A stretch of 64,000 bases of DNA from Octadecabacter temperatus (GTDB lineage Bacteria; Pseudomonadota; Alphaproteobacteria; Rhodobacterales; Rhodobacteraceae). Under the pieces are notes generated by a model that did no database searches, had not been told where the DNA came from, and saw only the letters and a program-made list of their open reading frames with translations. Position 1 is the first letter of the stretch. Every line of letters begins with the position of its first letter. Below are positions 7,551 through 24,929 of the stretch, in pieces. The stretch covers positions 2,480,001 through 2,544,000 of the forward strand of contig NZ_CP012160.1 in the NCBI RefSeq assembly GCF_001187845.1. Reading direction: 5' to 3'. A program made the translations under genes and the position numbers.

Positions 7551-7600
7551 TGTTACACGCTGTTACGTTGCTCTCGATTTTGTTGCATTCTGTTACATAA
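7551..7600. promoter_or_regulatory. Phased TGTTRC boxes, candidate response-regulator operator
   Basis: TGTTAC occurs at 7551, 7561 and 7591 and TGTTGC at 7581, so the four half-sites start exactly 0, 10, 30 and 40 bases apart, on one face of the helix. The GTTACA-N4-GTTAC arrangement resembles direct-repeat sites of OmpR-family regulators. It lies between gtsA (start 7423) and the response-regulator gene (start 7659), 59-108 bases before the latter. It is the natural candidate for control of both. Confidence 0.65.
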
Positions 7601-7658
7601 CAAGATGGCGCACCCTTGTCCGATAAGAAACCTCATCGTGCGTTGGAGAAATTGAACC

Positions 7659-10328: not shown

Positions 10329-10718
10329 CTATCCTTGGAATTCAGAGCGGTTCACGACATCGCGCAGAAAATCGATCCGTTTTGCCGTATATTCAGCATG
10401 GCAATATGCAGCGCCGCTGTCATGGGCAAACAATAGTGGCCAGTATACCTTGCAGTCGCGTTCGCGCGTATTGCTCCAACTGATTTGAGACGCCTGCAGG
10501 TCATTGGCAAAATTTTGGCCTATAGAAAATTTAATAAACGTCATCGCATCGGTAAATTCGATTGCCAATTGTAAGTCCCATGCGGCAGCTTCGTCGGCCC
10601 AGCATTCCGTTGGGTCTTGGCTTTGGACGCATCCATTTTCACGGACTTGATTTTCATTCACGATGCTAAGGCAGTCTGCCGCATGTTCGGCAGTCACCAA
10701 GCTACTTGCGAGCGTCAC
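10329..10718 (-). CDS. LprI/DUF1311-like secreted protein, start uncertain
   Basis: The 129-residue frame ends in a pattern typical of the DUF1311 (LprI, lysozyme-inhibitor) family. It has paired cysteines, a conserved C-x(n)-W region (CWADEAAAWD) and LQASQISWSNTRERDCKVYW followed by a late Cys before a charged helix. GTG 10718 is preceded by AGGAGG at ten bases. The in-frame sequence continues upstream as RNFIAGGVGSVTLASSLVTA, which resembles a signal peptide, but the expected ATG is a TTA codon and the next upstream codons offer no start. Either the GTG is used with a short leader, or the start codon was lost and the gene is decaying. Family members act in the envelope; exact function here is unknown. 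It stands alone between repeats and a flavoprotein gene. Confidence 0.5.
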   Translation of the reverse strand: MTLASSLVTAEHAADCLSIVNENQVRENGCVQSQDPTECWADEAAAWDLQLAIEFTDAMTFIKFSIGQNFANDLQASQISWSNTRERDCKVYWPLLFAHDSGAAYCHAEYTAKRIDFLRDVVNRSEFQG

Positions 10719-11003
10719 AGAGCCGACACCTCCTGCAATGAAATTACGTAACTGCCCGATGTGCCTTGGTAAGGATAGCGCGGTTCAACGCTATTGGTAT
10801 CGCAGGTCAGCCTAACAGGTGCTTGCCCCGGCAGCGTTACCGTTATTCCCCCAGCTTTCCTCCACGTTTAGCATGGTGCCTGCTAATTCTATTTCGGTAC
10901 CAAAAATTCATCTTAGGTCAACTGACTTTCATCACTTAGCCGATGTTGCTGTAGACCGCAGCATTGGTCAGATTGGGCTCTAATGCGCGCCTAAGGGTGC
11001 TGT

Positions 11004-11756
11004 TTAGATGTGGGTGATAAAAGCTGTCACGCTTTGTGCATCAGCCCTTAGGCGGCCATCTTCATCAAAATTACTATCCTCATTGAATTGCATCAGGGGC
11101 AATTCGTCGAAACCGTCGATGATGCCAGCATGCGCGGATAATCGATCCGCCAACCTCGCCTCTGTCTGCTGTTTTTCATGGTCTTTCCAATAACCGTGAA
11201 CTCCGTGGATGACCTGTGGTTGGGCGACGTTACATCCCAGATATCGAAAGGTGTAAGCCAATGGCCACAGAAGCATACGCACGTCGCCCTCTTTGCCGTC
11301 TGGTGAGCTTTCGCTTTCGCCAGATCCTGTGCTGGTACAAAACAATACGGTTTTGTCGCGGTACCGCCCTGCATCAAATCGTTCGCTCGCGGTGTGCATC
11401 GCGCCGTTTGCTAGGACACGCTCACACCAGCCTTTGATAATCGCGGGTGGGCCGAACCACCAGATTGGGAAGTGCAAAATGATCCTGTCAGCCGCTCTGA
11501 ATTTTGCGATTTCGGCTTCGATTTCGGTTGGCAGCGTCCCGCGCTCTGATGCTTCCTCCTGACATTTAAGAACGTCTGAACCTGTATGATCTGGATAGTG
11601 TTCAAACCGCTCGACCGGATCAAAATTCATCTGCACCAAATCTGAACGTGACACAGTTCCACCTGCTTGCAGGCATGCCTGTTCTGTTTTTTTCGCCCAT
11701 GAATTGGTGAAAGAGCCCCTAGAAGGATGGGCTGTTATGATCAATGTATGTGTCAT
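11004..11756 (-). CDS. NAD(P)H quinone reductase-like flavoprotein
   Basis: The 250-residue protein has a flavodoxin-2 fold of the NQO1/KefF/MdaB group. It opens with MTHTLIITAHPSRGSFT, where the phosphate-binding serine/threonine turn is visible, and has the motif LHFPIWWFGPPAIIKGWCER, typical of the flavin-binding loop. It likely carries out two-electron reduction of quinones using FAD or FMN. Start 11756 was chosen because TTAGGAG lies seven bases upstream, while the longer frame overlaps the divergent regulator's promoter region. It is transcribed away from the DeoR-type regulator at 11913 across a 156-base gap. A regulatory link between them is possible but not shown. Confidence 0.82.
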   Translation of the reverse strand: MTHTLIITAHPSRGSFTNSWAKKTEQACLQAGGTVSRSDLVQMNFDPVERFEHYPDHTGSDVLKCQEEASERGTLPTEIEAEIAKFRAADRIILHFPIWWFGPPAIIKGWCERVLANGAMHTASERFDAGRYRDKTVLFCTSTGSGESESSPDGKEGDVRMLLWPLAYTFRYLGCNVAQPQVIHGVHGYWKDHEKQQTEARLADRLSAHAGIIDGFDELPLMQFNEDSNFDEDGRLRADAQSVTAFITHI

Positions 11757-11912
11757 GCAAAAGCTCCTAAGGCATTCATTTGAATGGTGTTTGATGCAAC
11801 GTACCGCGCGGTTTCTGGGATGGAAATGCACAATATGATCATTATAAGTCATTTTGGTGATTGTTTTTGATCGTATTATTTGGTTGGATGCATTTGAACC
11901 AAGGATGGAATC

Positions 11913-12707
11913 ATGACCGAAGATCGTCAATCTAAACTGCTCTTGTTGCTTTTATCGCAAGGTCAGAAGTCGGTGCATGATATTGTGGTCGCCTTAAATG
12001 CCTCTCCTGCGACTGTGCGGCGGGATCTGTCCGAACTGGAGCAATCGGGGCGGATCGAACGGCTGCATGGGGGCGCGCGCATCGCAACCGGATCACAAAA
12101 GGAACTGGCATTCTCGGCGCGTGAAGACAATCAGATCGCTGCAAAGCGTGCGATTGCCAACGCGGCCTCTGCGCTTATCCAGCCGAATGAGGCAATTTTT
12201 CTGGATGCTGGTACGACTGTTCTTCAACTGGCGCGCCATATCAAAAGCAATTCGGTTCCGATCAATGTGTTCACCAACGGGTTGGTCATCGCGCAAGAAC
12301 TGGCGCACGTCGCCCATGTGAACGTCACGCTTATTGGCGGCCGCGTGCGATCTGAAAACCTGTCGATGGTGGGGCCAGCTGCGATTGCGATGTTGGACAG
12401 CTTATGGTTCGACCGCTTGTTTTTAGGGGCCTCTGCCATTGATCTTGGGGGTCACATCACAAGTCTTGACGCAGACGAAGCCGCAACAAACGCACAAATG
12501 GTTGCACGCAGTGCATCGCTGGTCGTTCTTGCTGATGGTACGAAATTCAACACACGCATCACCCACGCGGTCACCAAATTGGGCGAAGGCAACCATTTGA
12601 TCTCGGACGCGAAACCGACAGGCGCGTTTGGTGCATTTATTGATGCAGCCGATGTGTCATTTACCCAGTCTGGCAAGCCCGCGACCCTTCGGGTTTCACA
12701 TGGATAG
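11913..12707 (+). CDS. DeoR/AgaR-family sugar-phosphate-responsive repressor
   Basis: The 264-residue protein has an N-terminal DeoR winged helix (residues ~1-60, ASPATVRRDLSELEQSGRIERLHGGA, split here by motif TVRRDL). A C-terminal DeoRC sugar-phosphate-binding domain follows, with AGTTVLQLA and the G-G-x(n)-LGASAIDLGG region. DeoR proteins are repressors released by a phosphorylated sugar. It starts a tightly packed rightward operon with a sugar kinase, AgaS and KbaZ, so the AgaR role (amino-sugar or galactose-type phosphates) is the best guess. The stop overlaps the next gene by eight bases. Confidence 0.87.
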   Translation: MTEDRQSKLLLLLLSQGQKSVHDIVVALNASPATVRRDLSELEQSGRIERLHGGARIATGSQKELAFSAREDNQIAAKRAIANAASALIQPNEAIFLDAGTTVLQLARHIKSNSVPINVFTNGLVIAQELAHVAHVNVTLIGGRVRSENLSMVGPAAIAMLDSLWFDRLFLGASAIDLGGHITSLDADEAATNAQMVARSASLVVLADGTKFNTRITHAVTKLGEGNHLISDAKPTGAFGAFIDAADVSFTQSGKPATLRVSHG

Positions 12708-13608
12708 GACTGTTCTGTGCATTGATGGTGGGGGCACCAAAACGGCGGGCCTTGTTGCGGACGTCCACGGCGCATTGCATACTTTGACGCCAGCGGAGGG
12801 GTGCAATCCGCAAGATAGGCTCGGTTGGCAGAATGCGCTTGGTTCCCTTTTTGATCAGGCGCCGGGCATCGATTTTGCAGTCATTGGCATGCCCGGTTTT
12901 GGGGAAGTCCCAAAGCATGATACCGAAGCCGTAAATTTCATCAAAACTAAGATCAGCGCCGATCATCTGATCATCAATGACGTCGAATTGGCCTTTCGCG
13001 GTGCGTTCCCTGATCGGAACGGTGTTTTGGTTCTGGCGGGCACAGGATCAATGGCCATCGGGCAAGCTGGTGGCGATATTCGGCGATCTGGCGGGTGGGG
13101 CCATTGGCTGGGCGATGAGGGCAGCGCGTTCTGGATCGGGCAACAGGCGTTGTCACGCGCCGCGGCAGAACTGGATGGCAGAACGCCACACGTCGGGTTC
13201 GCCGCGAAATTGGCTGATGCGCTAGATGCGCCAAACCATCCTTTCGGGCTTTTGGACTGGGCAATGCAGGATGGTTCAAGTCGTGCGCGGATCGCAAGTG
13301 TTGCACGTACCGTGGATGATTTGTCTTTGTCAGGTGACGTCACCGCGCGTTCTATTTTGGGCGCAGCCGCATGCCATTTGACCGCATTGGCGCAATCTGT
13401 TTTGCACACGTCCCAGCCGTGGGCCCATGCCGGTTCTGTCTTTCAAAGCACACACATCACTGACGCGATGACGCAGTCACTTGGCCCGGCAAAACCACCC
13501 GCGACAAGCGCGTTGGTCGGGGGCGTTCTTCATGCTGCGACACTGGCAGGGTGGGACACCTCACCTGCTTGGACCGATAAAGTTATGTCGCAAGGCACTC
13601 ATTTATGA
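12700..13608 (+). CDS. BadF/BadG-type N-acetylhexosamine kinase (AgaK-like)
   Basis: The 302-residue protein belongs to the BadF/BadG/BcrA ATPase family, which includes N-acetylglucosamine and N-acetylgalactosamine kinases. It opens with the phosphate loop CIDGGGTKTAGLVAD, followed by NDVELAFRGAF, GTGSMAIG and the characteristic GGWGHWLGDEGSAFWIG. The ATG at 12700 overlaps the regulator's stop by eight bases; the longer frame upstream encodes only regulator shadow. With an AgaR-type regulator before it and AgaS after it, the likely substrate is (N-acetyl)galactosamine or a related hexosamine, giving the 6-phosphate. Glucosamine cannot be excluded. Confidence 0.82.
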   Translation: MDRTVLCIDGGGTKTAGLVADVHGALHTLTPAEGCNPQDRLGWQNALGSLFDQAPGIDFAVIGMPGFGEVPKHDTEAVNFIKTKISADHLIINDVELAFRGAFPDRNGVLVLAGTGSMAIGQAGGDIRRSGGWGHWLGDEGSAFWIGQQALSRAAAELDGRTPHVGFAAKLADALDAPNHPFGLLDWAMQDGSSRARIASVARTVDDLSLSGDVTARSILGAAACHLTALAQSVLHTSQPWAHAGSVFQSTHITDAMTQSLGPAKPPATSALVGGVLHAATLAGWDTSPAWTDKVMSQGTHL

Positions 13609-13628
13609 CACTCAAAGGAGCCTCTCAG

Positions 13629-14582
13629 ATGGCACTCACAATTGATGGTATCACCGGACAATTCGACTTTTGGCGCAAGGCAAAGATGCCAGCGCCATTG
13701 CCTGTTACCGAAGTCACCTACGTCGTGATCGGCTGTGGGACCAGCTATAACCTTGCCCTCGCCGTGGCCGCTGCAATGTGCGCTGCGGGCCACAGCGCGA
13801 TTGGCGTGCCTGCGGGTGAATGGTTTGACCGACCAGAGGCCTATCTGCCCAAAAGTGCCAACGCTAAGATCATTGCATTGTCGCGCAGCGGCACGACAAC
13901 AGAAACGGTGCGGGCCGCACAGGCCAGTCGGGCGCGGGGCCTTCATGTGACGGGGATATCTTGCGCGCCAAAGACCGCATTGGAAGCCGCCTCTGACACG
14001 GTAATCGTCTATGACACGCATCCTGCCGAAGGCATAGTGATGACATCATCTGCGTCCTTGATGCTGCTTGCAGGCTATGCGTTGGCCGGCCTGACGGTTG
14101 ATGATGTACTCACAGCACAGGCAGAAACGTTGCTGAACGCATTGAACGCCGCTGATATTGCCCCATTCCATACCCGCGACCACATCGTGTTTCTTGGTGG
14201 GGGTGCACATTACGGCGTTATGCTTGAAGGCGGCCTGAAGCTAATGGAAATGGCGATCACCGCGACGCAGACGTTTCATCCCGGTGAATATCGCCACGGC
14301 CCGATCAGCTTGATCGACGAAGGATCTGCGGTCGTTATGCTGTATCACAGCGACACAGCAGCGGCGGACGCGGATCTTGTCCAAGAAGTCCAAGCCAAAG
14401 GCGCATTCGTTGTCGGGATTGGTGGGCCGGGGGATGTGTCCTTGCCTGTCGGCGCAATCGGTGACCTTGTGGGCGCAGAAGCCCTGCCAGCGTTACAATT
14501 GCTCGGCGAACGTCATGCACAATCCAAGAACATTGACACCACAGCCCCCCGCCACTTGAGTAAAGTCGTGGTTTTAGCATGA
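13629..14582 (+). CDS. agaS: SIS-domain sugar isomerase/deaminase, AgaS-like
   Basis: The 317-residue protein carries two SIS (sugar isomerase) domains. Domain one shows GCGTSYNLALAVA and the SRSGTTTET loop; domain two shows FLGGGAHYGVMLEGGLKLMEM and HPGEYRHGP. These features fit AgaS, the galactosamine-6-phosphate deaminase/isomerase that yields tagatose 6-phosphate. The start at 13629 has AAAGGAG eight bases upstream. An ATG at 13605 overlaps the kinase stop but has no site. Its end overlaps kbaZ in ATGA, so the genes are coupled. GlmS-like deaminases are the main alternative; the adjacent KbaZ favours the tagatose route. Confidence 0.82.
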   Translation: MALTIDGITGQFDFWRKAKMPAPLPVTEVTYVVIGCGTSYNLALAVAAAMCAAGHSAIGVPAGEWFDRPEAYLPKSANAKIIALSRSGTTTETVRAAQASRARGLHVTGISCAPKTALEAASDTVIVYDTHPAEGIVMTSSASLMLLAGYALAGLTVDDVLTAQAETLLNALNAADIAPFHTRDHIVFLGGGAHYGVMLEGGLKLMEMAITATQTFHPGEYRHGPISLIDEGSAVVMLYHSDTAAADADLVQEVQAKGAFVVGIGGPGDVSLPVGAIGDLVGAEALPALQLLGERHAQSKNIDTTAPRHLSKVVVLA

Positions 14583-15865
14583 CCCCACTAGAGGCTTTTA
14601 TCGCGCTGCCAGCGGCCCATGGTGCCGGTCAAAAACCAGGTGTGACCTGCGTGTGTTCCGCGCATCCGTTGGTCATCGAGGCCGGATTGATCGAGGCCCA
14701 CACCGCCGGTCAAATCCCTTGCATTGAAGCGACGTGCAATCAGGTCAACCAAGACGGCGGATATACCGGAATGACCCCGGCTGATTTTCGCGACATTGTG
14801 ATGGGTATTGCCGATACGGTTGGCGTCCCGCACGACACCATACTGCTTGGCGGGGATCACCTTGGCCCGAACCCATGGCGTCATTTACCTGCGCAAGATG
14901 CTATGGCCAAGGCGCTCGTGATGACAAAAGCCTACGCTCAAGCCGGATTTGCAAAAATCCATCTGGATGCGTCAATGTCGTGCGCCGACGATCCCATCCC
15001 CCTCAGCAATGACGTCATCGCCGCGCGCGCCGCAGCCCTTATGGCGCAGTCTGAAGATGGGGCCACAGCCGGTGGCCATCCGCCCCCCGCCTATATCATT
15101 GGCACCGAAGTTCCAGTTCCCGGTGGCGCATCAGAGGGCCACGAACATTTGGTCGTGTCCCGCCCCGAAGACGCGGCTGCCACCGTGTTGGCCCATGTAG
15201 ACGCGTTAAGATCGGCAAACCTTGACCACGTCTGGCCCCGAATTGTCGGCCTTGTCGTTCAGCCCGGTGTCGAATTTGGCCAGATCGACATTGATCGTTA
15301 TGTTTCAAGCGCAGCAGCACAGTTGTCTGAATGGCGGGCGGCCCAAGACGCCTTAGTCTTCGAAGCCCATTCGACCGACTATCAACCCGCACAAGTCCTG
15401 TCCCAATTGGTGCAAGACGGCTTTCCAATCCTCAAGGTTGGCCCTGGATTAACCTTTGCGATGCGCGAGGCATTTTACGGATTGGATGCCATCGCGGGTG
15501 AAATGTCGGATGACTACGTGGCCGGATTCCTGCCCAAAACAATGGAAGCGGTCATGATGGAAAACCCAGTACAATGGCGCAGTTATGTCAGCGGCACCGA
15601 GCATGAACAAAAAACCCAGCGCCATTTCGGGCGGTCCGACCGGATCCGGTATTTGTGGCCGGACCCGACCGCGAAGGCCGCGATGGATACCCTTTTGGCG
15701 ACGCTTGGGAGCAGCGAAATACCGTGGTCTTTGATCTCTCAACATCTTGGCCGCTTGGCGGATGATGTTGCGGACGGCACGCAATTGCCCGTGGCGCGCG
15801 ACCTTGTTCTTGGCGCGATCCGTGCGGCCTTGGCCCCCTACACCACCGCCTGTCAGGAGGGCTAG
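14579..15865 (+). CDS. kbaZ: Tagatose-bisphosphate aldolase-associated protein (KbaZ/GatZ/AgaZ)
   Basis: The 428-residue protein matches the KbaZ/GatZ family (PF08013). It has CSAHPLVIEA, EATCNQVNQDGGYTGM, LLGGDHLGPNPW, HLDASMSCADD and EAHSTDYQ. In enterobacteria GatZ/KbaZ stabilise the catalytic class II aldolase GatY/KbaY. In Shewanella genome work the family was proposed to be a tagatose-6-phosphate kinase (AgaZ). No KbaY-type aldolase or other tagatose kinase is in the window, which makes the kinase reading attractive here or means the aldolase is elsewhere. The next gene, an ABC ATPase, starts three bases after its stop. Confidence 0.88.
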   Translation: MTPLEAFIALPAAHGAGQKPGVTCVCSAHPLVIEAGLIEAHTAGQIPCIEATCNQVNQDGGYTGMTPADFRDIVMGIADTVGVPHDTILLGGDHLGPNPWRHLPAQDAMAKALVMTKAYAQAGFAKIHLDASMSCADDPIPLSNDVIAARAAALMAQSEDGATAGGHPPPAYIIGTEVPVPGGASEGHEHLVVSRPEDAAATVLAHVDALRSANLDHVWPRIVGLVVQPGVEFGQIDIDRYVSSAAAQLSEWRAAQDALVFEAHSTDYQPAQVLSQLVQDGFPILKVGPGLTFAMREAFYGLDAIAGEMSDDYVAGFLPKTMEAVMMENPVQWRSYVSGTEHEQKTQRHFGRSDRIRYLWPDPTAKAAMDTLLATLGSSEIPWSLISQHLGRLADDVADGTQLPVARDLVLGAIRAALAPYTTACQEG

Positions 15866-15868
15866 ACT

Positions 15869-16918
15869 ATGGGTACGTTGAAACTGGATAACATCACTAA
15901 GTCCTACGGCGCCGTAGAAGTGTTACACGGCATCAATTTCGATGTGGCCGAAGGGGAATTTATCGCCCTTGTGGGCCCATCCGGCTGCGGGAAATCCACG
16001 CTTTTGCGGATGATCGCGGGGCTTGAGGCCGTCACATCAGGCGAGATTTCAATGGGCGATAAAGTCGTTAACGAAGTCGCACCCGCCGAACGTGATGTGG
16101 CCATGGTGTTTCAATCCTACGCTTTGTATCCGCATATGACCGTGCGCCAGAACATGGGGTTTGCTCTGGAAATGGCATCGGTGCCCAAGGCCGAAGCTGC
16201 TAAATCCGTTGAACATGCGGCAAACATTTTGGGCCTGACGCCGTATCTGAAACGCCGCCCTAAAGAACTATCTGGCGGGCAAATGCAACGCGTGGCGATG
16301 GGGCGTGCCATCGTGCGCAACCCAGAGATTTTCTTGTTCGACGAACCGCTATCCAATCTTGATGCACAACTGCGCGGACAGGTGCGCGGCGAAATCCAGA
16401 CCCTGCATGACAAACTGAAAACGACGACGATTTATGTGACTCATGATCAAGTCGAAGCGATGACACTGGCCGACCGGCTTGTGGTACTGCGCGCCGGGCA
16501 TGTCGAACAGATCGGCACGCCACTTGATCTTTATGACCGTCCTTTAACGCCATTCGTGGCTGGATTTATTGGTGCACCGCCGATGAACCTGTTTGAAGGA
16601 TCATATGCTGCGGGTGCCTTAACGCTCCAAGATAGTACAAAGCTGGTCGTGGCCACGGGAATACATCTGGCGCAAGAAGATACGACGATTATTGGTGTGC
16701 GACCCGAGCATTTGCACCGTGCCGCCCATGGGTGGCCTGCCAAAGTGACGCTTGTGGAAACGATGGGTCATGAAACCCATGTTTCGGCGATGATTGGTGA
16801 AACGGCCGTGACTTACACCATGACAACACGCGATTTCCCCAAAGCCGGAGACGACATTTTCTTGTCCCCTGACCCGACGCAGTTGCACGTTTTCCGCAAT
16901 GGCGAACGCCAGAACTAA
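15869..16918 (+). CDS. Carbohydrate ABC transporter ATPase (UgpC/MsmK type)
   Basis: The 349-residue CUT1 ATPase is intact. It has Walker [10 protein letters not shown], the Q-loop VFQSYALYPHM, signature ELSGGQMQRVAMGRA, Walker B FLFDEPLSNLDA, the switch histidine in YVTHDQVEAMT, and a C-terminal TOBE-like domain (GVRPEHLH). It should power the binding protein and permeases encoded at 18-21 kb, although it is separated from them by the AraC gene on the other strand. MalK-type ATPases can serve several transporters, so it might also energise the glucose system whose own ATPase gene is frameshifted. The stop overlaps the convergent AraC gene's stop by four bases. Confidence 0.9.
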   Translation: MGTLKLDNITKSYGAVEVLHGINFDVAEGEFIALVGPSGCGKSTLLRMIAGLEAVTSGEISMGDKVVNEVAPAERDVAMVFQSYALYPHMTVRQNMGFALEMASVPKAEAAKSVEHAANILGLTPYLKRRPKELSGGQMQRVAMGRAIVRNPEIFLFDEPLSNLDAQLRGQVRGEIQTLHDKLKTTTIYVTHDQVEAMTLADRLVVLRAGHVEQIGTPLDLYDRPLTPFVAGFIGAPPMNLFEGSYAAGALTLQDSTKLVVATGIHLAQEDTTIIGVRPEHLHRAAHGWPAKVTLVETMGHETHVSAMIGETAVTYTMTTRDFPKAGDDIFLSPDPTQLHVFRNGERQN

Positions 16919-17778
16919 TGCCCGCGCATCTTGGAGCGGTAATCGCGTGGTGTCCGCCCAAGATGCGTTTTGAACGCATCATAAAGCCGCGTCAAAGAAC
17001 TGTATCCGGCGCGGTGTGCGATCTCTGAAATGCCATGATCGGTCTCTGCCAGAAGCCGCATCGCGAGGCTTAACCTTTGGCGACGCAGGTATTGCGCGAT
17101 GGTCATTCCAAGGACACGACGAAAGGCGGCTTGTGCGTTTGTGGGGTGCAATCCGGTCTGGCTTGCGATGATTGCAACATCAATCGGGTCGGCCAAATTA
17201 TCCTGAATGAACGCCGTCATTTGCTCCACATGCCGCACACCGGTTGCCCGCCGTCCCTTCAACAAATCCGCCCCCTCAAGTGTGCCCGATTGGCGTGGTT
17301 CCACAGACATACGCCGTAGCCGCAACAGGATTTCTTCGCGCCAGATTTGTTGCACAACAGTGTCCGCACCGCCCCAACCCGCCGCCATATCCTCAAGCCT
17401 GTAACCGTCTTCGGGGGATTCCACACCCGATTGCACAAGCGCGCCCGCCAACACAGACGCCCGAAATTCGGGATCAATTGGCAAGGCCAAAAAACTACCG
17501 ATTGGGATGTAAGCGCAATACATCATCTGGTCTTCTTGCACCGATATAGTCTGGTGATTTATCGCCGCCCAAAATACCCCGATGCGACGCGGCAACAGCG
17601 ACACGCGCCGCCCGTTCATCAGGTAATCTATCCGACCTTTGGGGACCCAGTTGATCTCAAGGTGGTCATGCCAATGCGCGGCAGGCATGGCATCCGCCTC
17701 GTGGCGCTCGACAAAAAAATCATCAGGCGCAAGGCCCTCTTCGGGGGGGTCATAAAGACGCGTATCAGCCGTTGACAT
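16915..17778 (-). CDS. AraC-family regulator, MelR-like
   Basis: The 287-residue protein has an N-terminal cupin-like sensing domain (AHWHDHLEINWVPKGRIDY) and a C-terminal double helix-turn-helix of AraC/XylS type at ~190-285 (IASQTGLHPTNAQAAFRRVL and ISEIAHRAGYSSLTRLYDAF). Its organisation resembles MelR, the melibiose-responsive activator. It is divergent from the binding-protein gene at 17969 with 190 bases between, where a perfect palindrome is found. Activation of the transporter and GH4 operon by an alpha-galactoside is inferred. Confidence 0.85.
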   Translation of the reverse strand: MSTADTRLYDPPEEGLAPDDFFVERHEADAMPAAHWHDHLEINWVPKGRIDYLMNGRRVSLLPRRIGVFWAAINHQTISVQEDQMMYCAYIPIGSFLALPIDPEFRASVLAGALVQSGVESPEDGYRLEDMAAGWGGADTVVQQIWREEILLRLRRMSVEPRQSGTLEGADLLKGRRATGVRHVEQMTAFIQDNLADPIDVAIIASQTGLHPTNAQAAFRRVLGMTIAQYLRRQRLSLAMRLLAETDHGISEIAHRAGYSSLTRLYDAFKTHLGRTPRDYRSKMRGH

Positions 17779-17798
17779 GAAAACCTCTAAATCACTTC

Positions 17799-17810
17799 TT
17801 TTCCGGAAAA
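17799..17810. promoter_or_regulatory. Perfect 12-bp palindrome in the divergent regulator/transporter promoter region
   Basis: TTTTCCGGAAAA is a perfect palindrome 21 bases before the AraC-type start and 159 bases before the binding-protein start. A partial copy, TCGGAAAAAATTC, follows at about 17823. It is a candidate operator, but AraC proteins usually prefer direct repeats, so a LacI- or DeoR-type factor may be the ligand. Confidence 0.4.
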
Positions 17811-17968
17811 TATTACCCTAGCGTCGGAAAAAATTCAAGCCAAACTTCGTAAATACGATGCTAGGCTGTTTCCATCTTACGCACTCGGGCATCAAACAAG
17901 ACCCAAGGCAAAGATATTTTTTGCAGCACAACCCATAGTGGGAGTGCGCGACACGGAGGTTCTAACCA

Positions 17969-19219
17969 ATGAAAAAATATACAAACATTTTCGCAACTAC
18001 GGCATTGGCGACCATGATGGTCCCCGGCCTTGCGGCGGCGCAAACCGACCTGACCTATATGATGTGGGGCGACCCGCCAGAAATCGCCGTCTGGGAACAG
18101 CTGGTCGAGGCGTTTCAGGTAGAACATCCTGACATTAACATTGCCGTCGAAGTGTCTGACTGGGGCACCTATTGGGAAAAACTTCTGGTGCAGGTCGCCG
18201 GTGGTGATGCGCCTGATCTGTTCGCCATGGACGCCCCGATTTACCCTGATTGGCAAGCTCGTGGAGCCTTGCTTGATATCACACCATACTTGGCCGATTC
18301 TGACGTTCTGGATGGTATTTATGCTGGGCCACTGTCGTCCTATCAACTTGAAGCTGGCACATTCGGCCTGCCCCGCGATTTCCAGACCATCGTGATGTAT
18401 TACAACAAAGCGATGCTTGACGAAGCCGGACTTGAGTATCCGTCCGCTGATTGGACGCTGGATGATCTGCGCACCACCGCTGCAGCCCTTACAATCGACA
18501 AAGACGGCGACGGCAATATTGATCAATGGGGCATTGGCACCGAAGCATGGGACATGGAGCCATTTTGGGGCCCGGTTGTGTTTGCCCACGGCGGCGAAAT
18601 CATATCAGAAGACTTTTCGACCACGTTAATGACCGAAGGCCCAGCACGCGATGCGTTTGATTACATCAACGCGCTGATCGTCGAAGATAAATCCATCATG
18701 TCCGAAGAAAACCTTGAATCCTACGGTTGGGATGGTTTTCAGGCAGGCGTGGCTGCGATGACGTTCTCGGGTCACTGGGTTATTCCTGCCTATTCTAGCC
18801 TTGATTTTGATTGGGCTGTGGCACCGTTCCCGTCCGGTCCAGCTGGTCGTGCGACATTGGTTAATTCTGCCGGTATCGTGGGCAGTGCGACAACAGAACA
18901 TCCAGATGAAGTTTATGAATTCATGGAGTTTGTGGTGTCTGAAGAAGGTCAATCGATCCTCGCATCTTTGGGTTTTGCCATTCCGGTGAACAGAGCGGCG
19001 GCCTCTGGTCCTGCGTACCTGGAACAGACATCGCCAGGGGATCACGTGATGTTTGTGGATGCGCTTGAATATGCGCGCGCCAAGCCGGCGTTTCGCGGGT
19101 ACGAAGAATGGTCCGGCCTTGTTGGCGAACCCCTTGGTATGACGTGGGCCGGTGAATGGTCAATTTCCGAGGCTCTCGATGAAATCGCGGCAACTGCTGA
19201 CGACGCTCTCGGAAATTAA
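17969..19219 (+). CDS. Periplasmic sugar-binding protein of ABC transporter
   Basis: The 416-residue family-1 solute-binding protein has a clear signal peptide (MKKYTNIFATTALATMMVPG, cleavage near AAAQ). Then follow YMMWGDPPEIAVWEQLVEAF, LLVQVAGGDAPDLFAMD and MYYNKAMLDEAG, the usual landmarks of oligosaccharide-binding proteins. ACGGAGG precedes the ATG. It is the first gene of a rightward operon (binding protein, two permeases, GH4 glycosidase, amidohydrolase). The substrate is probably an alpha-galactoside or a (N-acetyl)galactosaminide, judged from the enzymes. The sequence itself does not settle it. Confidence 0.9.
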   Translation: MKKYTNIFATTALATMMVPGLAAAQTDLTYMMWGDPPEIAVWEQLVEAFQVEHPDINIAVEVSDWGTYWEKLLVQVAGGDAPDLFAMDAPIYPDWQARGALLDITPYLADSDVLDGIYAGPLSSYQLEAGTFGLPRDFQTIVMYYNKAMLDEAGLEYPSADWTLDDLRTTAAALTIDKDGDGNIDQWGIGTEAWDMEPFWGPVVFAHGGEIISEDFSTTLMTEGPARDAFDYINALIVEDKSIMSEENLESYGWDGFQAGVAAMTFSGHWVIPAYSSLDFDWAVAPFPSGPAGRATLVNSAGIVGSATTEHPDEVYEFMEFVVSEEGQSILASLGFAIPVNRAAASGPAYLEQTSPGDHVMFVDALEYARAKPAFRGYEEWSGLVGEPLGMTWAGEWSISEALDEIAATADDALGN

Positions 19220-19229
19220 TTCTCCCCGT

Positions 19230-19263
19230 CGGGGCGGCGTAATGCTGCCCCGATGACTTTTTT
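19230..19263 (+). terminator. Terminator-like attenuator between binding protein and permeases
   Basis: CGGGGCGGC (19230-19238) pairs with GCTGCCCCG (19244-19252) around a five-base loop, and a T6 run follows at 19258-19263. This is a standard intrinsic-terminator layout, 10 bases after the binding-protein stop. Partial read-through would keep binding protein in excess over the membrane parts. It overlaps the first possible ATG of the next gene (19253), arguing for a later start. Confidence 0.7.
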
Positions 19264-19291
19264 ACCCAACATTCGATTGGAATGCGGCGTT

Positions 19292-20173
19292 ATGCAAGTC
19301 GACGGAATGACGCCAAAAGGCCGCGAGAGGTTTTGGACCGGGGTCTTGCTCACGCCGACAATGCTCGGACTTGGGCTTGGCGTTTTGGGGTCGATCTTTG
19401 CGACACTCTGGTTGGGCTTTTACGACTGGGATTTGTTCACCGCGCCCGAATGGGTTGGTCTTGAAAACTACACCGACCTGCCCGGTGATCGCCGATTTAT
19501 GCAGTCCCTGCGCGTCACAACCCTTTTTTCTGCCATCTACGTCCCTGGCACCGTGATCCTTAGCATCGCGATAGCACTGTTGCTCAACCGTCATGTCGTT
19601 GGTAAATCGCTGTTCCGGCTGTTCTTTTTCCTCCCCGTTGTGACGTCGCCCGTAGCCGTTGGTCTTGTCTGGAGCTGGATTTATTCCCGCGATCAGGGGC
19701 TTCTTAACAACATGCTGTCAACCGTTGGGATGGATCCTGTCTATTGGCTGGGGCGCGATATGGCGCTGTATTCCGTGGTGGTCGTGAATATCTGGGGCGC
19801 TGTGGGCGAAGGCATGATTATCTTCCTCGCGGGCCTGCAAGCCATTCCCAAAAACCTGTACGAGGCCGCAATGTTAGATGGCGCCTCGCGATCCAAGCAA
19901 TTCTGGCGCATCACGCTGCCCCTGCTGATCCCGTCGATCTTTTTCCAAGTCATTCTGTCGACCATTAACGCTTTCCAGGCGTTCGATTACGTTTACGTGC
20001 TGACATCCACCCAAGGGGGCGGATCAACCATGCCGACGCTGGTGTTCAATCTCTACCGCGAAGGGTTCAAGTTCTTCCGCATGGGGGACGCCGCCGCACA
20101 GGCAGTCGTTCTGGCCGGTATCATCATGGTGCTGACGTTGATCTACAATCAACTCCAGAAACGGTGGGGCTAG
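19292..20173 (+). CDS. Sugar ABC transporter permease (MalF type)
   Basis: The CUT1 permease has six predicted membrane spans, the first beginning at FWTGVLLTPTMLGLGLGVLG. Its EAA loop is PKNLYEAAMLDGASRSKQFW, the ATPase contact. The open frame extends to ATG 19253, but that codon lies in the attenuator hairpin, so ATG 19292 (MQVDGMTPKGRERFW) is preferred. The ATG before TPKG (19307) is a third option. The next permease begins four bases after the stop. It forms the transmembrane pore with the next gene product. Confidence 0.85.
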   Translation: MQVDGMTPKGRERFWTGVLLTPTMLGLGLGVLGSIFATLWLGFYDWDLFTAPEWVGLENYTDLPGDRRFMQSLRVTTLFSAIYVPGTVILSIAIALLLNRHVVGKSLFRLFFFLPVVTSPVAVGLVWSWIYSRDQGLLNNMLSTVGMDPVYWLGRDMALYSVVVVNIWGAVGEGMIIFLAGLQAIPKNLYEAAMLDGASRSKQFWRITLPLLIPSIFFQVILSTINAFQAFDYVYVLTSTQGGGSTMPTLVFNLYREGFKFFRMGDAAAQAVVLAGIIMVLTLIYNQLQKRWG

Positions 20174-20176
20174 GTC

Positions 20177-21028
20177 ATGTCAAACGCCCACCTTCTTAAA
20201 CCCACATTCGGCAACCACATGCGCGAAAACGCGATCTTTTACGCGCTGTTGTTGTTGGGCACGTTCATCATGATAGGCCCGTTTGTGTGGATGATGTCCA
20301 CCGCCCTCAAGGTGCCCGGCGATCAGTTTGATCAACGCCTGATCCCGCAAGAAATCACTCTCGATAACTTTTCGAACGCGTGGCAGTTGATGGAGTTTCG
20401 CCATCTGGTCTGGAACAGTTTCAAAATTGCGGCACTGTCGACCATCGGCCAGTTGATCACCTGTTCCATGGGCGCGTTCGTGTTTGCTGTCGTCAAATTC
20501 CGTGGTCGCGAAGCATTGTTCGTTTTGCTTTTGGCCACACTGATGATCCCCGCGCAGATGACGGTGATCCCCCAATTCCTGATTTTCCGCTGGCTTGGCC
20601 TTTATGGGACCGCCGCCCCGCTTTACCTTCCTGCATTTCTAGGCGGTGCCTTCGGTGTCTTTCTGCTGCGTCAATATTTCCGCACGATCCCTATGGATCT
20701 GATGGACGCCGCCCGCCTTGATGGCGCATCGCTGTTGTCGATCTGGTGGCGCATCTATTTGCCATTGGCGCGCCCGGCTCTGGCGGCACTTGCCATCTTT
20801 GCGTTCATGTCATCGTGGAACGACCTGTTCACCGCGCTGATCTACCTGCCGTCTGATCTTGAAAAAACGACGCTCCCGGTCGGGCTTTCACTCTTTCAAC
20901 GGCTGTATCGCGCAGAGTGGACGATCATGATGGCCGCGGTCCTAATCTCGGTCACCCCGATCATGATCGCATTCTTTTTCGTTCAACGTCAGTTCATTGC
21001 GGGCATCGCGATGACGGGCGTCAAATAA
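20177..21028 (+). CDS. Sugar ABC transporter permease (MalG type)
   Basis: The 283-residue CUT1 permease has a short N-terminal tail, a first membrane span at residues ~20-40 and five more. The EAA loop reads PMDLMDAARLDGASLLSIWW. It is co-transcribed with the preceding permease and with the GH4 glycosidase gene 28 bases downstream. It completes the importer of the galactoside island with the binding protein at 17969 and, most likely, the ATPase at 15869. Confidence 0.88.
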   Translation: MSNAHLLKPTFGNHMRENAIFYALLLLGTFIMIGPFVWMMSTALKVPGDQFDQRLIPQEITLDNFSNAWQLMEFRHLVWNSFKIAALSTIGQLITCSMGAFVFAVVKFRGREALFVLLLATLMIPAQMTVIPQFLIFRWLGLYGTAAPLYLPAFLGGAFGVFLLRQYFRTIPMDLMDAARLDGASLLSIWWRIYLPLARPALAALAIFAFMSSWNDLFTALIYLPSDLEKTTLPVGLSLFQRLYRAEWTIMMAAVLISVTPIMIAFFFVQRQFIAGIAMTGVK

Positions 21029-21055
21029 CCCCCTGTTTCCAAAGGACCTAACCTT

Positions 21056-22372
21056 ATGACTAAAATTTGCCTCGTCGGCGCTGGCAGCACCGTTTTCGCC
21101 CAATCGATCTTGGGTGACGTGCTGTCTATTCCTGCACTTCAACACGCCGAAATTTCACTGTTTGATATTGACGCCGAACGCCTTGAGACTTCGCTAACCG
21201 TGACGCGCCGGATTGGAGAAACTCTGGGGATCAAAGACCTGAAGGTTTCAAGCCACCTTGAACGTCGTCCCGCATTGGACGGTGCTGACTTCGTTATTCT
21301 GATGATGCAAGTTGGAGGATACAAACCCGCCACCGTCACCGATTTTGAAATCCCCGAAAAATACGGCCTTGGCCAAACGATTGGCGATACCTTGGGTATT
21401 GGTGGCATTATGCGCGGCCTGCGCACGATCCCCGTTCTGTTCGACATTTGCGCGGATATGGAGGAACTTTGCCCCGACGCGACGTTGTTGCAATACGTCA
21501 ATCCGATGGCGATCAACTGTTGGGCGATCAAGGAAAAGTTCCCCAATATCAAGGTCGTGGGCCTGTGCCATTCCGTGCAAGAAACCGCACATGAATTGGC
21601 TGGCATGCTGGGAGTTGATCCGCATGCGTTGCATTATCGCTGCGGCGGTATCAACCATGTGGCGTTCTATTCCAAATTTGAATTGGTCCATCCTGATGGC
21701 ACCCACGAAGACCTTTATCCGCGCCTGAAACAGATGGCGCAGGATCGCACCTACCCTGAATACGACGAGGTGCGGTTCGATATGTTGCGCCGCGTCGGGC
21801 ATTTCGTCACCGAAAGTTCAATGCACTTTAGCGAATACAGCTCTTGGTACCTCAAGGCCGCGCACCCTGAAATCGTTAAGAAAAATCAACTGCGGATCGG
21901 CGAATACCTGTACCGCTGCGAAGAACAGATTGCCGAATGGCGCGAGCTTCAAAAGGAACTTGAGGGCGACGCGCCTTTAGAGGTCGAACGTTCAAACGAA
22001 TACGCCGCCGGCATTATCGAAGGTATCGTAACTGGCAAACCCCAAACCATCTGGGGCAACGTCCCAAACAACGGTCTGATCCCCGCTCTGCCCGATGATT
22101 GCATCGTCGAAGTCCCCTGCCACGTCGATCGCAACGGCATTTCGCCCATGCGCGCCGAACCGATGCCGTCGATGCTGACGTCCATCATGGGCAAGTCCAT
22201 CGCCGTCCAACGCGAGGTCGTGAACGCCGCTGTTACGGGCAAGAAGGATTCGATTTATCACGCTGCAATGCTTGACCCGCATACGTCGGCGGAACTGACC
22301 TTGGATCAATCCTCAGCCATGGTGGATGAATTGCTGGCCGCTCATGACGACTGGCTGCCGCGCTACACCTGA
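21056..22372 (+). CDS. melA: GH4 alpha-galactosidase-type glycosidase (MelA-like)
   Basis: The 438-residue protein is a family GH4 glycosidase, cytoplasmic and NAD- and Mn-dependent. The N-terminal Rossmann motif is VGAGSTVFAQSILGD. NPM (149-151), Cys171 in GLCHSVQ and His201 in GGINH mark the metal and substrate site. Length and these motifs fit MelA, which cleaves alpha-galactosides by an oxidation-elimination route. GH4 also includes alpha-glucosidases, alpha-glucuronidases and alpha-galacturonases, so the exact glycan is not certain. Position after a complete importer shows it acts on an imported oligosaccharide or glycoside. The stop shares a base with the next gene's start (TGATG). Confidence 0.85.
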   Translation: MTKICLVGAGSTVFAQSILGDVLSIPALQHAEISLFDIDAERLETSLTVTRRIGETLGIKDLKVSSHLERRPALDGADFVILMMQVGGYKPATVTDFEIPEKYGLGQTIGDTLGIGGIMRGLRTIPVLFDICADMEELCPDATLLQYVNPMAINCWAIKEKFPNIKVVGLCHSVQETAHELAGMLGVDPHALHYRCGGINHVAFYSKFELVHPDGTHEDLYPRLKQMAQDRTYPEYDEVRFDMLRRVGHFVTESSMHFSEYSSWYLKAAHPEIVKKNQLRIGEYLYRCEEQIAEWRELQKELEGDAPLEVERSNEYAAGIIEGIVTGKPQTIWGNVPNNGLIPALPDDCIVEVPCHVDRNGISPMRAEPMPSMLTSIMGKSIAVQREVVNAAVTGKKDSIYHAAMLDPHTSAELTLDQSSAMVDELLAAHDDWLPRYT

Positions 22373-23436
22373 TGGAGTTGAAAGACTTCGCACCTCACCC
22401 CACGTTGGTGACCCATGAAACATCGATAAGTGGGCCATCACGTCGGTGTATCGATGCGCACAACCATCTGGGCGCGTTTGGCGGTGACTGGGCCGCGCGT
22501 CCGGCAGTTGAATTTTTCGATCATATCGACAGCCTTGGCGTCGCACATTATGTCGATCTGGACGGCGGCTGGGGCGAAGACATTCTCGACGATCGGTTGC
22601 GACGCTACAAAGCGCTGCGGCCCGATCAATACCGCGTTTATGGCGGCGTCGATTGGGGCCGTTGGGCGGATGATGGGCACAGGTTTGCCGAAAAATCCGC
22701 CAAACGACTTGAGGCGCAGGCCGCACGGGGGGCAGAAGGCCTCAAAATCTGGAAACCCTTTGGCTTGCACGTCACTGATGACGCCGGGCAACTGGCGAAA
22801 ATCGATGATCCACGCCTTGATCCGATATGGGAAACGGCGGGCGCAATTGGCCTTCCTATAATGATCCATATCGCGGATCCCGTCGCATTCTTTGACCCGA
22901 TAACACCGCACAACGAACGCATCGAAGAACTTGGCCAGAACCCCGACTGGTCTTTTCCACCCGACAGGTTCCCGTCGTTCAGTGATTTGATCGAAGCCTT
23001 CGCTAGACTGGTCAAACGCCACCCAAAGACAACGTTCATCGGCGCTCATGTCGGTTGTTACGCCGAAAATCTGCAATGGGTCGGGGCATTGCTGGATGCC
23101 TGCCCAAACCTGATGATAGATTTTTCAGCACGCATCGCGGAACTGGGCCGCCAACCTTTTGCGGCCCGAAAGTTTTTCATGGACCACAGTGACCGTATTC
23201 TATTCGGAACCGACGCGGGCCCTGATCGCGTCACCTACGCCATCTATGCGCGGTTCCTTGAAACGTCGGACGAATATTTCAGCTACAGTCCGGACAAAAT
23301 CCCGGGTTCGGGGCGCTGGAATATCTATGGGTTGAATTTGCCCGCACCGGTTCTGGACAAGGTGTATTATGAGAATGCAGCCACATTATTTGGCCTCAAT
23401 GACAGTATTTCAACCAGTGCTTTGCATCGAGGATAG
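22372..23436 (+). CDS. Amidohydrolase-2 family metal-dependent hydrolase
   Basis: The 354-residue protein is a TIM-barrel amidohydrolase (PF04909 type). Likely metal ligands are H30 and H32 in DAHNHLG, His in IMIHIADP, His in FIGAHVG and Asp in LFGTDAGP. Family members hydrolyse lactones or amides or decarboxylate ring acids; the substrate cannot be read from sequence. It is translationally coupled to the GH4 gene, so it should act on a product of the imported glycoside. A tempting inference is deacetylation or de-amidation of the released sugar or aglycone, because the pathway's AgaS step needs an unacetylated amino sugar and no NagA/AgaA-type deacetylase is present. Confidence 0.8.
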   Translation: MELKDFAPHPTLVTHETSISGPSRRCIDAHNHLGAFGGDWAARPAVEFFDHIDSLGVAHYVDLDGGWGEDILDDRLRRYKALRPDQYRVYGGVDWGRWADDGHRFAEKSAKRLEAQAARGAEGLKIWKPFGLHVTDDAGQLAKIDDPRLDPIWETAGAIGLPIMIHIADPVAFFDPITPHNERIEELGQNPDWSFPPDRFPSFSDLIEAFARLVKRHPKTTFIGAHVGCYAENLQWVGALLDACPNLMIDFSARIAELGRQPFAARKFFMDHSDRILFGTDAGPDRVTYAIYARFLETSDEYFSYSPDKIPGSGRWNIYGLNLPAPVLDKVYYENAATLFGLNDSISTSALHRG

Positions 23437-23597
23437 CCTTGCAGACTACGGTTAAATAAAAAGCAGACCTGAGGACATGAAGGCAACTTTGCCTGCGTTG
23501 TGTGAATACGCCGAACATCTGAATTTGCGGTTGGGGCGAATGGCAGCAATGCGGGCTGCTATCGCAGCATAGCCGAGGGTCGAGCAATGTCTCCTTT

Positions 23598-23646
23598 GGG
23601 CCGTGGTTTCAGGCTCAGTTTTGTCTGTTTCCCGAAACCGGACTTT
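23598..23646 (+). repeat. Dispersed intergenic repeat, second type, copy 2
   Basis: This partner of 10091-10139 shares GGGCCGTG at its start and TCTGTTTCCCGAAA in the middle, about three quarters identical over 49 bp. It is followed 27 bases later by the other repeat type. Confidence 0.55.
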
Positions 23647-23673
23647 GGCCACGATGCAGCAAAACGGCAAAGA

Positions 23674-23709
23674 GGGCTCAAAGCCGACTTTCGCTGCAGA
23701 TCGCACGAA
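23674..23709 (+). repeat. Dispersed intergenic repeat, copy 2
   Basis: This partner of 1703-1738 is identical at 33 of 36 positions, with the shared core TTCGCTGCAGATCGCA. Both copies are in the same orientation. Confidence 0.65.
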
Positions 23710-23871
23710 CGTCCGCTTTTTCACATCAGCAGCAAAACGGCCCCGCCTCAAGGCACCTGCACTGATCGCAGACCTTACGCTTGACGCGCCCTCATCTGCT
23801 CGACATGTTCTGGCTATGTCACAAGCAGAACGCCTCATACACACGACCAACTAACCGCTCCTTCATCGGGG

Positions 23872-24219
23872 AAACCGTTAACCACCGACAGCTCATATAT
23901 TTCTGCCGCAGCATTCAGTCGCCAAGTCGGCATTAGAGAATCTGGGTGGTTTGAAAAACTATTTTCCGCAGGTCATGCAAGCGCCACGCGCAGACCTCAT
24001 CCGACACTTGGCGGAGACCGGATTTACCTATCCGAGCAAGACATTGAAGCATTTCATCTACAGTTCCTCACATCGACGACGATGGTTTTGGAGTTTACCG
24101 AGGCCCGGCAGACCGTAATTGCTAAATTGACGGCAGCTGGGGTGAAACCATTCGGCCCAAATGGTGAGACCTATGGCCCACTATACTTGCGCAAAGACGT
24201 CGAAGCGGTTCTGGGCTGA
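23872..24219 (+). pseudogene. C-terminal remnant of a DNA-binding mobile-element protein
   Basis: A frame with no start codon is open to TGA 24217-24219. It encodes a coherent protein end: SAAAFSRQVGIRESGWFEKL, then HPTLGGDRIYLSEQDIEAFH, and finally GVKPFGPNGETYGPLYLRKD. The layout is a helix-turn-helix, then wings, then a second helix-turn-helix. It resembles C-terminal regions of TniQ-like or other transposon-associated DNA-binding proteins, though I cannot name the family with certainty. The N-terminal part is missing. It lies on the 3' side of tRNA-Arg, a usual integration position for islands. Confidence 0.45.
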
Positions 24220-24394
24220 CGATCTCAGCGTCGCTCGGAGCTGGCGTTGTCGCGGCTATGAGGCGTTTGGGCACACAAAACCTATAGTGCAAAATGCGGT
24301 TCAAAAACGAAGGCCCTTATTTATATGGCCTGAGCAACCTATTGCCTTTTTTGCGCATGCTTATGCTTTTTCTGGCAACAACAATCGGAAAATC

Positions 24395-24471
24395 TGGCGA
24401 TCCCGGGAGGACTCGAACCCCCAACATCCTCATTAGAAGTGAGGTGCTCTATCCAGTTGAGCTACGGGACC
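24395..24471 (-). tRNA. tRNA-Arg (anticodon TCT)
   Basis: Reading leftwards, the acceptor stem GGTCCCG pairs with CGGGATC. The D-arm contains AGCTCAACTGGATAGAGC, the anticodon stem-loop is CCTCA-CTTCTAA-TGAGG with anticodon TCT, and the T-arm is GGGGG-TTCGAGT-CCTCC. The 3' CCA is encoded (24395-24397). It reads AGA codons. All stems are intact. Confidence 0.95.
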
Positions 24472-24683
24472 GCTCTCGCCCTTCTAGCGGGCAGCTGGGC
24501 CAAACTTCAAGCGTCGCGTTATAAAATACGCCGCTAGGTCTTTAACGCGGCCATGACACCCCTAAGTTCTGCAAGCAGCGCGCCTATAGTTGCGACCATA
24601 TCCGTGTCACCGGCAAGTTGTTCGGATTCATGGAAACTTGCGTGGGGTCCTTCTGCGGGGCCAAGACGCAACGTATTGCGAAG

Positions 24684-24926
24684 ATGAGCAAAATGAACGA
24701 CAATGTTGTTGAAACCGCTGGCTACTATAATCTTGCAGGTTTCAACGACGACACCCGCGCCTTCCTATCGCTACCGGCGCGGCAAGAACTGTGGCGGCGT
24801 GGTGTCGCCTTGCACCTCGGAGATGAAATCGACCGTGGTATCCTCACAAGAAACGAGGCGGAGGGCGTGGCCAAATGGCTGGTCCACGATGCTGCCGTGG
24901 GTTCCTACAGACTAAAGAAAGTATAG
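24684..24926 (+). CDS. Small conserved-looking protein of unknown function upstream of mannitol-dehydrogenase gene
   Basis: The frame gives 80 residues from ATG 24684 (MSKMNDNVVETAGYYNLAG). It is rich in charged residues with no signal peptide or membrane span. The composition (NDDTRAFLSLPARQELWRRG, LGDEIDRGILTRNEAEGVAK) looks like a folded soluble helical protein rather than random sequence. The stop lies three bases before the next gene's ATG, so the two are probably translated together. A later ATG at 24693 is possible; neither start has a strong ribosome site. I do not recognise a family. A regulator or partner of the dehydrogenase is possible. Confidence 0.5.
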   Translation: MSKMNDNVVETAGYYNLAGFNDDTRAFLSLPARQELWRRGVALHLGDEIDRGILTRNEAEGVAKWLVHDAAVGSYRLKKV

Positions 24927-24929
24927 ATT

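Follow-up and report, generated by a model that had tools for sequence, protein, structure and literature searches.

A putative catabolic module for alpha-linked galactosamine oligosaccharides in Octadecabacter temperatus

The 3.26-Mb genome of Octadecabacter temperatus contains an island of 11 intact open genes that we consider reasonably likely to be a complete cytoplasmic catabolic module for short alpha-linked galactosamine oligosaccharides or glycosides. The island lies at 11913-23436 of the stretch of DNA that we analysed (the window: 64,000 nt, C1:2480001-2544000), and island coordinates below are window positions. Judging by its sequence, it is a real, conserved and probably functional pathway, and its likely substrate would be an alpha-linked galactosamine oligosaccharide of the Pel or galactosaminogalactan type.

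In the pathway that we propose, the substrate-binding protein (SBP), permeases and ATPase of an ATP-binding cassette (ABC) importer would take in the oligosaccharide, and an enzyme of glycoside hydrolase family 4 (GH4) would free galactosamine units. An amidohydrolase would strip the N-substituent where one is present (most simply acetate), and a BadF-type kinase would form galactosamine-6-phosphate, which a SIS-domain enzyme would deaminate and isomerise to tagatose-6-phosphate. C4 epimerisation by a GatZ/KbaZ-family protein would then yield fructose-6-phosphate, which enters central metabolism. A DeoR-family and an AraC-family regulator may each control one half.

A preliminary description of this DNA had proposed a route for an imported galactosaminide or for another glycoside such as a marine osmolyte. 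The gene context of related loci in Pseudomonadota, Chloroflexota and, in part, Actinomycetota favours the galactosaminide; we found no support for the osmolyte.

The step from tagatose-6-phosphate to fructose-6-phosphate

The preliminary description saw missing steps in the island and cast KbaZ as a kinase. Both claims conflict with PMC11907403, which reports that GatZ and KbaZ of E. coli are C4 epimerases that interconvert fructose-6-phosphate and tagatose-6-phosphate. (This paper also names active-site residues of GatZ and refers to similar studies of Agrobacterium and Sinorhizobium.) At all seven of the active-site positions named for GatZ (Cys20, Glu44, Asp87, His88, Glu171, His257 and Lys279), the island protein has the same residue, by a hand count on an alignment to 2fiq. 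Because a GatZ-type epimerase would take tagatose-6-phosphate to fructose-6-phosphate in one step, neither a second kinase nor an aldolase is needed, and the steps that seemed to be absent from the island are probably not missing at all.

The island protein matches PF08013 with 524.9 bits (cut-off 26.7), and this is the only match to that model in the whole genome. It falls below the equivalog cut-offs of TIGR02810 (541.8; cut-off 568.8) and of the KbaZ model PRK15458 (470.7; cut-off 707), so we regard it as a relative and not as a strict equivalog. The genome also encodes one class II aldolase (PF01116), far from the island at C1:2603851-2604651.

The BadF-type kinase, KbaZ, GH4 enzyme, amidohydrolase and ABC importer with its own ATPase that had been named from the letters alone were all confirmed by family models. 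As had also been stated, no NagA/AgaA, KbaY or phosphotransferase system (PTS) gene was recognised among the 11 island genes with Pfam and NCBIfam. Two labels proved too specific. The "AgaS" is indeed a SIS-domain enzyme, but it scores just 58 bits against the AgaS model TIGR02815 (cut-off 529.2). GlmD is a closer match (107 bits; cut-off 580), and so is 1j5x, a glucosamine-6-phosphate deaminase (E = 1e-28). Similarly, the "AgaR-type" regulator does belong to the DeoR family, but its score for the AgaR model NF040755 (159.5 bits) is below the cut-off of 260 and is exceeded by that for GlpR (176.8 bits; cut-off 300).

Endo-alpha-galactosaminidase genes in related loci

The main pointer to the substrate comes from loci in other genomes that encode relatives of the amidohydrolase. 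Searching a genome collection with a 16-sequence alignment of the amidohydrolase gave 459 pattern matches, of which 228 were confirmed, and we analysed the best 80 of these 228 loci (numbered with L below). They are mostly from Chloroflexota, and many are incomplete; 50 of the 80 are at least 15 kb long. The loci were selected by the amidohydrolase, independently of their content of GH114-family genes.

For 79 of the 80 loci, we searched the genome for PF03537 (two sets of 35 and 44; the genome of L003 was left out). Matches were found in 27 of the 35 and in 16 of the 44 genomes. When domains in the same frame were merged (three in G198 and two in G640), the 56 matches over the cut-off became 53 genes (35 + 18); one match below the cut-off (G664:C71) was left out. 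Of these 53 GH114-family genes, 27 fall inside the amidohydrolase loci, in 25 of the 80 loci, where 0.19 would be expected: the loci amount to 1.31 of 374 Mb, or 0.35% of the DNA in the 79 genomes. The binomial probability of this linkage, 4e-52, treats related genomes as independent, so the figure means no more than "very strong." Three further loci (L038, L059 and L081) were among the 28 that matched GH114 queries by tblastn and were dropped because they had no PF03537 match.

A GH114-family gene is present in 24 of the 55 loci with a SIS gene, versus 1 of the 25 loci without one. Relatives of the island's SBP (44-54% identity; tblastn, E < 1e-100) occur in 21 of the 80 loci, and 11 of these 21 also hold a GH114-family gene. 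Of the GH114 types, one matches Ega3, "endo alpha-1,4 polygalactosaminidase" (E = 2e-54), and another matches TM1410 (E = 2.5e-35). In L007, from a metagenome-assembled genome of Rhodobacteraceae, a GH114 domain adjoins the importer (E = 5.8e-43). The actinomycetes Embleya (L100) and Nonomuraea (L101) have the order GH4-amidohydrolase-permeases-SBP; in Embleya a GH114 gene lies about 8 kb away, and in Nonomuraea a Spherulin4 protein that matches the spherulin-4 structure 5c5g (E = 2.5e-5; GH135 type) adjoins the SBP.

According to PMC12054363, endo-galactosaminidases of GH114, GH135 and GH166 take part in degrading galactosaminogalactan and further fungal and bacterial exopolysaccharides that contain galactosamine, and galactosamine-rich exopolysaccharides belong to the matrix of bacterial and fungal communities. 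The same paper places TM1410 in GH191 and states that one GH191 enzyme is active on Pel and that attempts with TM1410 failed.

Other proteins recur at these loci: DUF4832/DUF4874 proteins (cluster c5; L044, L046, L059, L061, L073 and L074) and GH114_assoc plus DUF1565 proteins (cluster c14; L038, L039, L059 and L064), GH114_assoc being named for the GH114 family. Four of these nine loci (L039, L064, L073 and L074) also hold a GH114-family gene. By eye, the GH114-family, DUF4832/DUF4874 and GH114_assoc proteins look secreted. In Yoonia maricola, a frame of 1096 amino acids with three GH114-family domains lies away from the amidohydrolase locus (G198:C5:140267-142786) and might encode a partner enzyme.

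More tentatively, we suggest that the island may be part of a widespread system for alpha-1,4-galactosamine polymers, in which GH114, GH191 or GH135 enzymes would act outside the cell, followed by the ABC importer, a GH4 exo-alpha-galactosaminidase, and an Amidohydro_2 N-deacetylase of a new type that would act before phosphorylation. O. temperatus would have kept the importer and the intracellular half. In the titles and abstract openings of open-licence literature, we found no description of an amidohydrolase-importer variant that is tied to galactosaminidases.

The amidohydrolase

The amidohydrolase is not a member of the NagA/AgaA family: its sole Pfam match is PF04909 (80 bits; cut-off 26.4), and NCBIfam gave none, which leaves room for a similar way of working. 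His30, His32, His166, His226 and Asp281 are invariant in all 40 aligned sequences, including the island protein. We take these HxH...H...H...D residues, from knowledge of the family, to be the metal and catalytic residues; they presumably form a mononuclear metal site of the ACMSD type.

Neither the single protein nor a 40-sequence profile matched any solved structure by sequence. An AlphaFold2 model of the protein is good (pLDDT 89.7). The structures that resemble it in fold belong to uncharacterised proteins, to decarboxylases (aromatic and ACMSD-type), to 2-pyrone-4,6-dicarboxylate hydrolases, to di-iron enzymes and, with Foldseek only, to dihydroorotases, which act on an amide. No sugar deacetylase is among the best 50 matches in either of two lists, which excludes nothing. 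The predicted structure has the general amidohydrolase fold, which does not tell the reaction.

Within 400 bases of the amidohydrolase gene there is a SIS match in 38 of the 80 loci, a GH4 match in 7, and one or the other in 44. A NagA-like gene was found by tblastn in none of the 80 loci (the control, agaA in L084, was found, and a very divergent NagA would escape). In L026 (Chloroflexota; 7207-9046) and L101 (Nonomuraea; 19259-21175), a short-chain dehydrogenase/reductase (SDR) gene adjoins a gene for a pyridoxal-phosphate (PLP) enzyme similar to D-serine dehydratase and BhcC, near GH4 and amidohydrolase genes. This pair may mark an oxidative route via galactosaminate; in L026 there is, in addition, a weak match of NagB type (67 bits; cut-off 237). 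As the amidohydrolase occurs both with the SIS route and with this possible oxidative route, it would act before the two part. That it is the pathway's N-deacetylase is a guess, argued by elimination, which is plausible but unproven. The genome encodes one NagA above its cut-off, at C1:2044740-2045774, which is far from the island and has neighbours that look unrelated; it could also serve the pathway.

At E <= 1e-30, the amidohydrolase was found in 1 of 198 genomes of the family, namely O. temperatus itself, in a set with about one genome per genus from which relatives can escape.

Conservation of the gene set

The preliminary description called the island a hybrid and suggested checking whether its genes co-occur. 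When we ran this check with the 11 proteins (tblastn), we found a near-complete set in four loci from Rhodobacterales: L003, L004, L005 (Yoonia maricola) and L007. Their gene order is GatZ (on the opposite strand), DeoR, kinase, SIS, GH4, ATPase, amidohydrolase, SBP and permeases, with an extra permease pair between kinase and SIS in L004 and L007, and a Pelagibacterium plasmid (L099) has the same order. The AraC-family regulator has no match in these five loci. A near-identical set in four Rhodobacterales loci and on a Pelagibacterium plasmid implies that the island is no chance assembly.

In a phylogenetic tree, the island's GH4 groups with proteins from Pelagovum and Devosia (support 0.995) and then with rhizobial GH4 proteins (0.79), and the GH4 proteins of L003, L004, L005, L007 and L099 form a separate clade (support 1.0). 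In two rhizobial plasmids (L097 and L098), a relative of the AraC-family regulator (39% identical) adjoins GH4. The island thus joins a rhizobial-type AraC and GH4 to an amidohydrolase and importer of the other type. The closest relatives of the island proteins are in Pelagovum and Yoonia.

Across the 80 loci, we found SIS in 55, SBP in 43, GH4 in 40, a PfkB kinase (cluster c0) in 34, a LacD-type aldolase (c1) in 17, GatZ in 12, a LacC-like kinase (c4) in 7 and a melibiase-like protein (c12) in 4 (each cluster name rests on one annotated representative). The LacD-type and LacC-like genes also support the downstream part of the proposed pathway. The melibiase-like protein (PF02065) adjoins SIS or the amidohydrolase in L011, L021, L023 and L053. 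Three of these (L011, L021 and L053) gave no GH4 match, which suggests that one glycosidase family was swapped for another in the same slot.

GH4 itself is patchily distributed. At E <= 1e-100 it was found in 11 of 385 genomes of the class, counting O. temperatus, and in none of 18 genomes of the same genus (61-100% complete), so gain or loss of GH4 within the genus is likely, albeit unproven. At E <= 1e-120 there are matches in 430 plasmid records, 209 of them from Rhizobium; we inspected two of these contexts.

Comparison with known systems

The two rhizobial loci, L097 and L098, have the order AraC-GH4-DeoR-BadF-SBP-permeases-SIS-GatZ-UgpC. They share with the island the types of regulator, kinase, SIS, GatZ and ATPase, as well as a GH4 that is 64% identical. 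In contrast, their SBP has no match to the island's at E = 1e-5, their permeases are just 29-33% identical, and the amidohydrolase is absent. A predicted D-galactosamine locus of Sinorhizobium meliloti (Smb21216-21221 and Smb21373/21374) is given in the part of PMC4961836 available to us; as described there, and as a prediction only, it resembles the island in having an ABC importer and catabolic genes. A possible difference is that this description mentions neither GH4 nor an amidohydrolase. Since this locus had already been predicted, the monosaccharide half of our pathway is of a known kind.

The aga/kba operon of E. coli (L084) has, like the island, a DeoR-family regulator, a SIS isomerase (AgaS, 27% identical over 247 columns) and KbaZ (49% identical). 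What sets the two apart is that the E. coli operon contains PTS genes, kbaY and agaA, the last a pseudogene in K-12, whereas the island encodes an ABC importer, a kinase of the BadF type, GH4 and an Amidohydro_2 protein. The mel operon of E. coli (L083) resembles the island in that its GH4 enzyme, MelA (48% identical), is encoded beside a divergent AraC-type regulator, MelR; it differs in having the symporter MelB and no amino-sugar genes.

Alternative explanations

Could ordinary alpha-galactosides (melibiose, raffinose or galactosylglycerol) be what the importer and GH4 handle, with the SIS enzyme, GatZ and kinase reserved for free galactosamine and the two halves joined by chance? We think this improbable. 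The GH4 enzyme, whose family chemistry is NAD+-dependent, does pass the NCBIfam alpha-galactosidase model PRK15076 (601.3 bits; cut-off 486) and resembles MelA, and the best model for the AraC-family regulator is MelR (147 bits, below the cut-off of 253). However, GH4, SIS, GatZ, kinase, DeoR and ATPase stay linked, in varied gene orders, across rhizobia, Devosiaceae and Rhodobacterales, the island has no recognised gene for galactose catabolism, and about half of the loci with this type of importer also carry GH114-family genes. An alpha-galactosidase-type GH4 would also suit a system that takes up and consumes a glycoside osmolyte of marine origin (galactosylglycerol, for example), but this is highly unlikely: no osmolyte-specific gene was recognised, and related sets occur in bacteria from desert soil, root nodules and reactors. 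A glucosamine system, in which the SIS enzyme would be a glucosamine-6-phosphate deaminase and GatZ would act on another hexulose phosphate, would agree with the higher scores of the SIS enzyme for GlmD and 1j5x. Deamination of glucosamine-6-phosphate already yields fructose-6-phosphate, so GatZ would have nothing to do. The gene set nevertheless includes GatZ here, in rhizobia and in 12 of the 80 loci, and a LacD-type aldolase is in 17; we therefore consider this explanation quite unlikely. It is also unlikely that the amidohydrolase is a lactonase or other hydrolase that acts on an oxidised amino sugar, in a side route via galactosaminate. The 2-pyrone-4,6-dicarboxylate hydrolases among its fold neighbours (beside many decarboxylases), the SDR and D-serine-dehydratase-like pairs in L026 and L101, and an SDR-like frame seen by eye in L100 would fit such a role, but no dehydrogenase was recognised in the island or in the annotated neighbour clusters (c0-c5, c11, c12 and c14).

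Several observations weigh against a galactosamine module. The nearest relatives of the GH4 enzyme carry the names alpha-glucosidase/alpha-galactosidase, and it lies outside the GH4 group of the other alphaproteobacterial loci that bear the amidohydrolase. For the SIS enzyme, glucosamine-6-phosphate deaminase is a better match than AgaS, and the fold neighbours of the amidohydrolase are mostly decarboxylases and uncharacterised proteins. The set is not invariably complete: the rhizobial loci lack the amidohydrolase, L006 (Rhodobacterales) has an amidohydrolase and no other island match by tblastn, 25 of the 80 loci show no SIS, and the two actinomycete loci (L100 and L101) give no SIS or GatZ match. 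GH114-family genes are absent from 55 of the 80 loci. Finally, genes of the GH114, GH191 and GH135 endo-alpha-galactosaminidase types are present in amidohydrolase loci of relatives, whereas PF03537 gives no match in the genome of O. temperatus. (A Spherulin4 search of this genome also gave no match, with no working positive control.) In the light of the galactosamine pathway that we prefer, the lack of a GH114 match suggests that O. temperatus may be a scavenger of pieces that are cut by others.

Gene layout and flanking DNA

The 11 genes (Table 1) were identified from open reading frame calls with Pfam and NCBIfam scans; permease 2 was identified by its open frame. The genes for the DeoR-family regulator, BadF kinase, SIS enzyme, GatZ/KbaZ and ATPase lie almost end to end on the + strand. 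The SBP, both permeases, GH4 and the amidohydrolase form a second + strand run, which is preceded by the divergent AraC gene. This MelR-like gene is a member of the island that the preliminary description did not list.

Table 1. Genes of the island, in window coordinates
Feature	Position	Strand	Evidence
DeoR-family transcriptional regulator	11913..12707	+	PF00455 + PF08220; AgaR and GlpR models matched below cut-off
BadF/BcrA-type sugar kinase, candidate galactosamine 6-kinase	12700..13608	+	PF01869, E 1.3e-21; NagK model 64 bits, cut-off 370
SIS-domain amino-sugar-phosphate deaminase/isomerase, candidate for galactosamine-6-phosphate to tagatose-6-phosphate	13605..14582	+	PF01380
GatZ/KbaZ-family protein, putative D-tagatose-6-phosphate 4-epimerase	14579..15865	+	PF08013, E 1.6e-157
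ABC importer ATP-binding subunit, UgpC/MalK type	15869..16918	+	PRK11650, 482 bits, cut-off 432
AraC-family regulator, MelR-like, divergent from importer operon	16915..17778	-	PF12833
ABC importer substrate-binding protein (SBP)	17969..19219	+	PF01547
ABC importer permease 1; alternative in-frame start at 19292 possible	19253..20173	+	PF00528
ABC importer permease 2	20177..21028	+	Open frame; position after permease 1 kept in related loci
GH4 glycosidase, putative alpha-galactosaminidase or alpha-galactosidase	21056..22372	+	PF02056 + PF11975, both over cut-off
Amidohydrolase-2 family metal enzyme, candidate N-deacetylase	22372..23436	+	PF04909, E 3e-22

At the left edge, a frame that reads like a flavodoxin-like quinone oxidoreductase (11004-11930, - strand) overlaps the start of the island; a gene that is 54% identical lies beside GatZ in L005, and none was found in the other 79 loci (E = 1e-8). 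On the right, a tRNA-Arg gene (TCT; 24395-24471, - strand) lies about 0.96 kb past the last island gene. tRNA genes are common integration sites, and we considered a tRNA-borne insertion, but rejected it: there is no direct repeat of at least 18 bases in 9800-24930, and the GC content is not unusual. A search of the genus with the right-flank DNA returned mostly the tRNA, and no empty site could be defined. After the tRNA, a frame that reads like a mannitol/fructuronate dehydrogenase (24930-26222, + strand) has no match in the related loci (E = 1e-8).

Implications

KbaZ without KbaY should not be taken for a broken pathway. Enzymes for cutting galactosamine-rich exopolysaccharides are known, but in the literature that we found, organisms that live on pieces of galactosamine polymers, and the pathway that they use, are poorly described. 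If our proposal is true, then it would provide a route from import to fructose-6-phosphate, along with a candidate GH4 galactosaminidase. It would also suggest a candidate function for a subfamily of amidohydrolases whose names, among the matches listed, are all generic.

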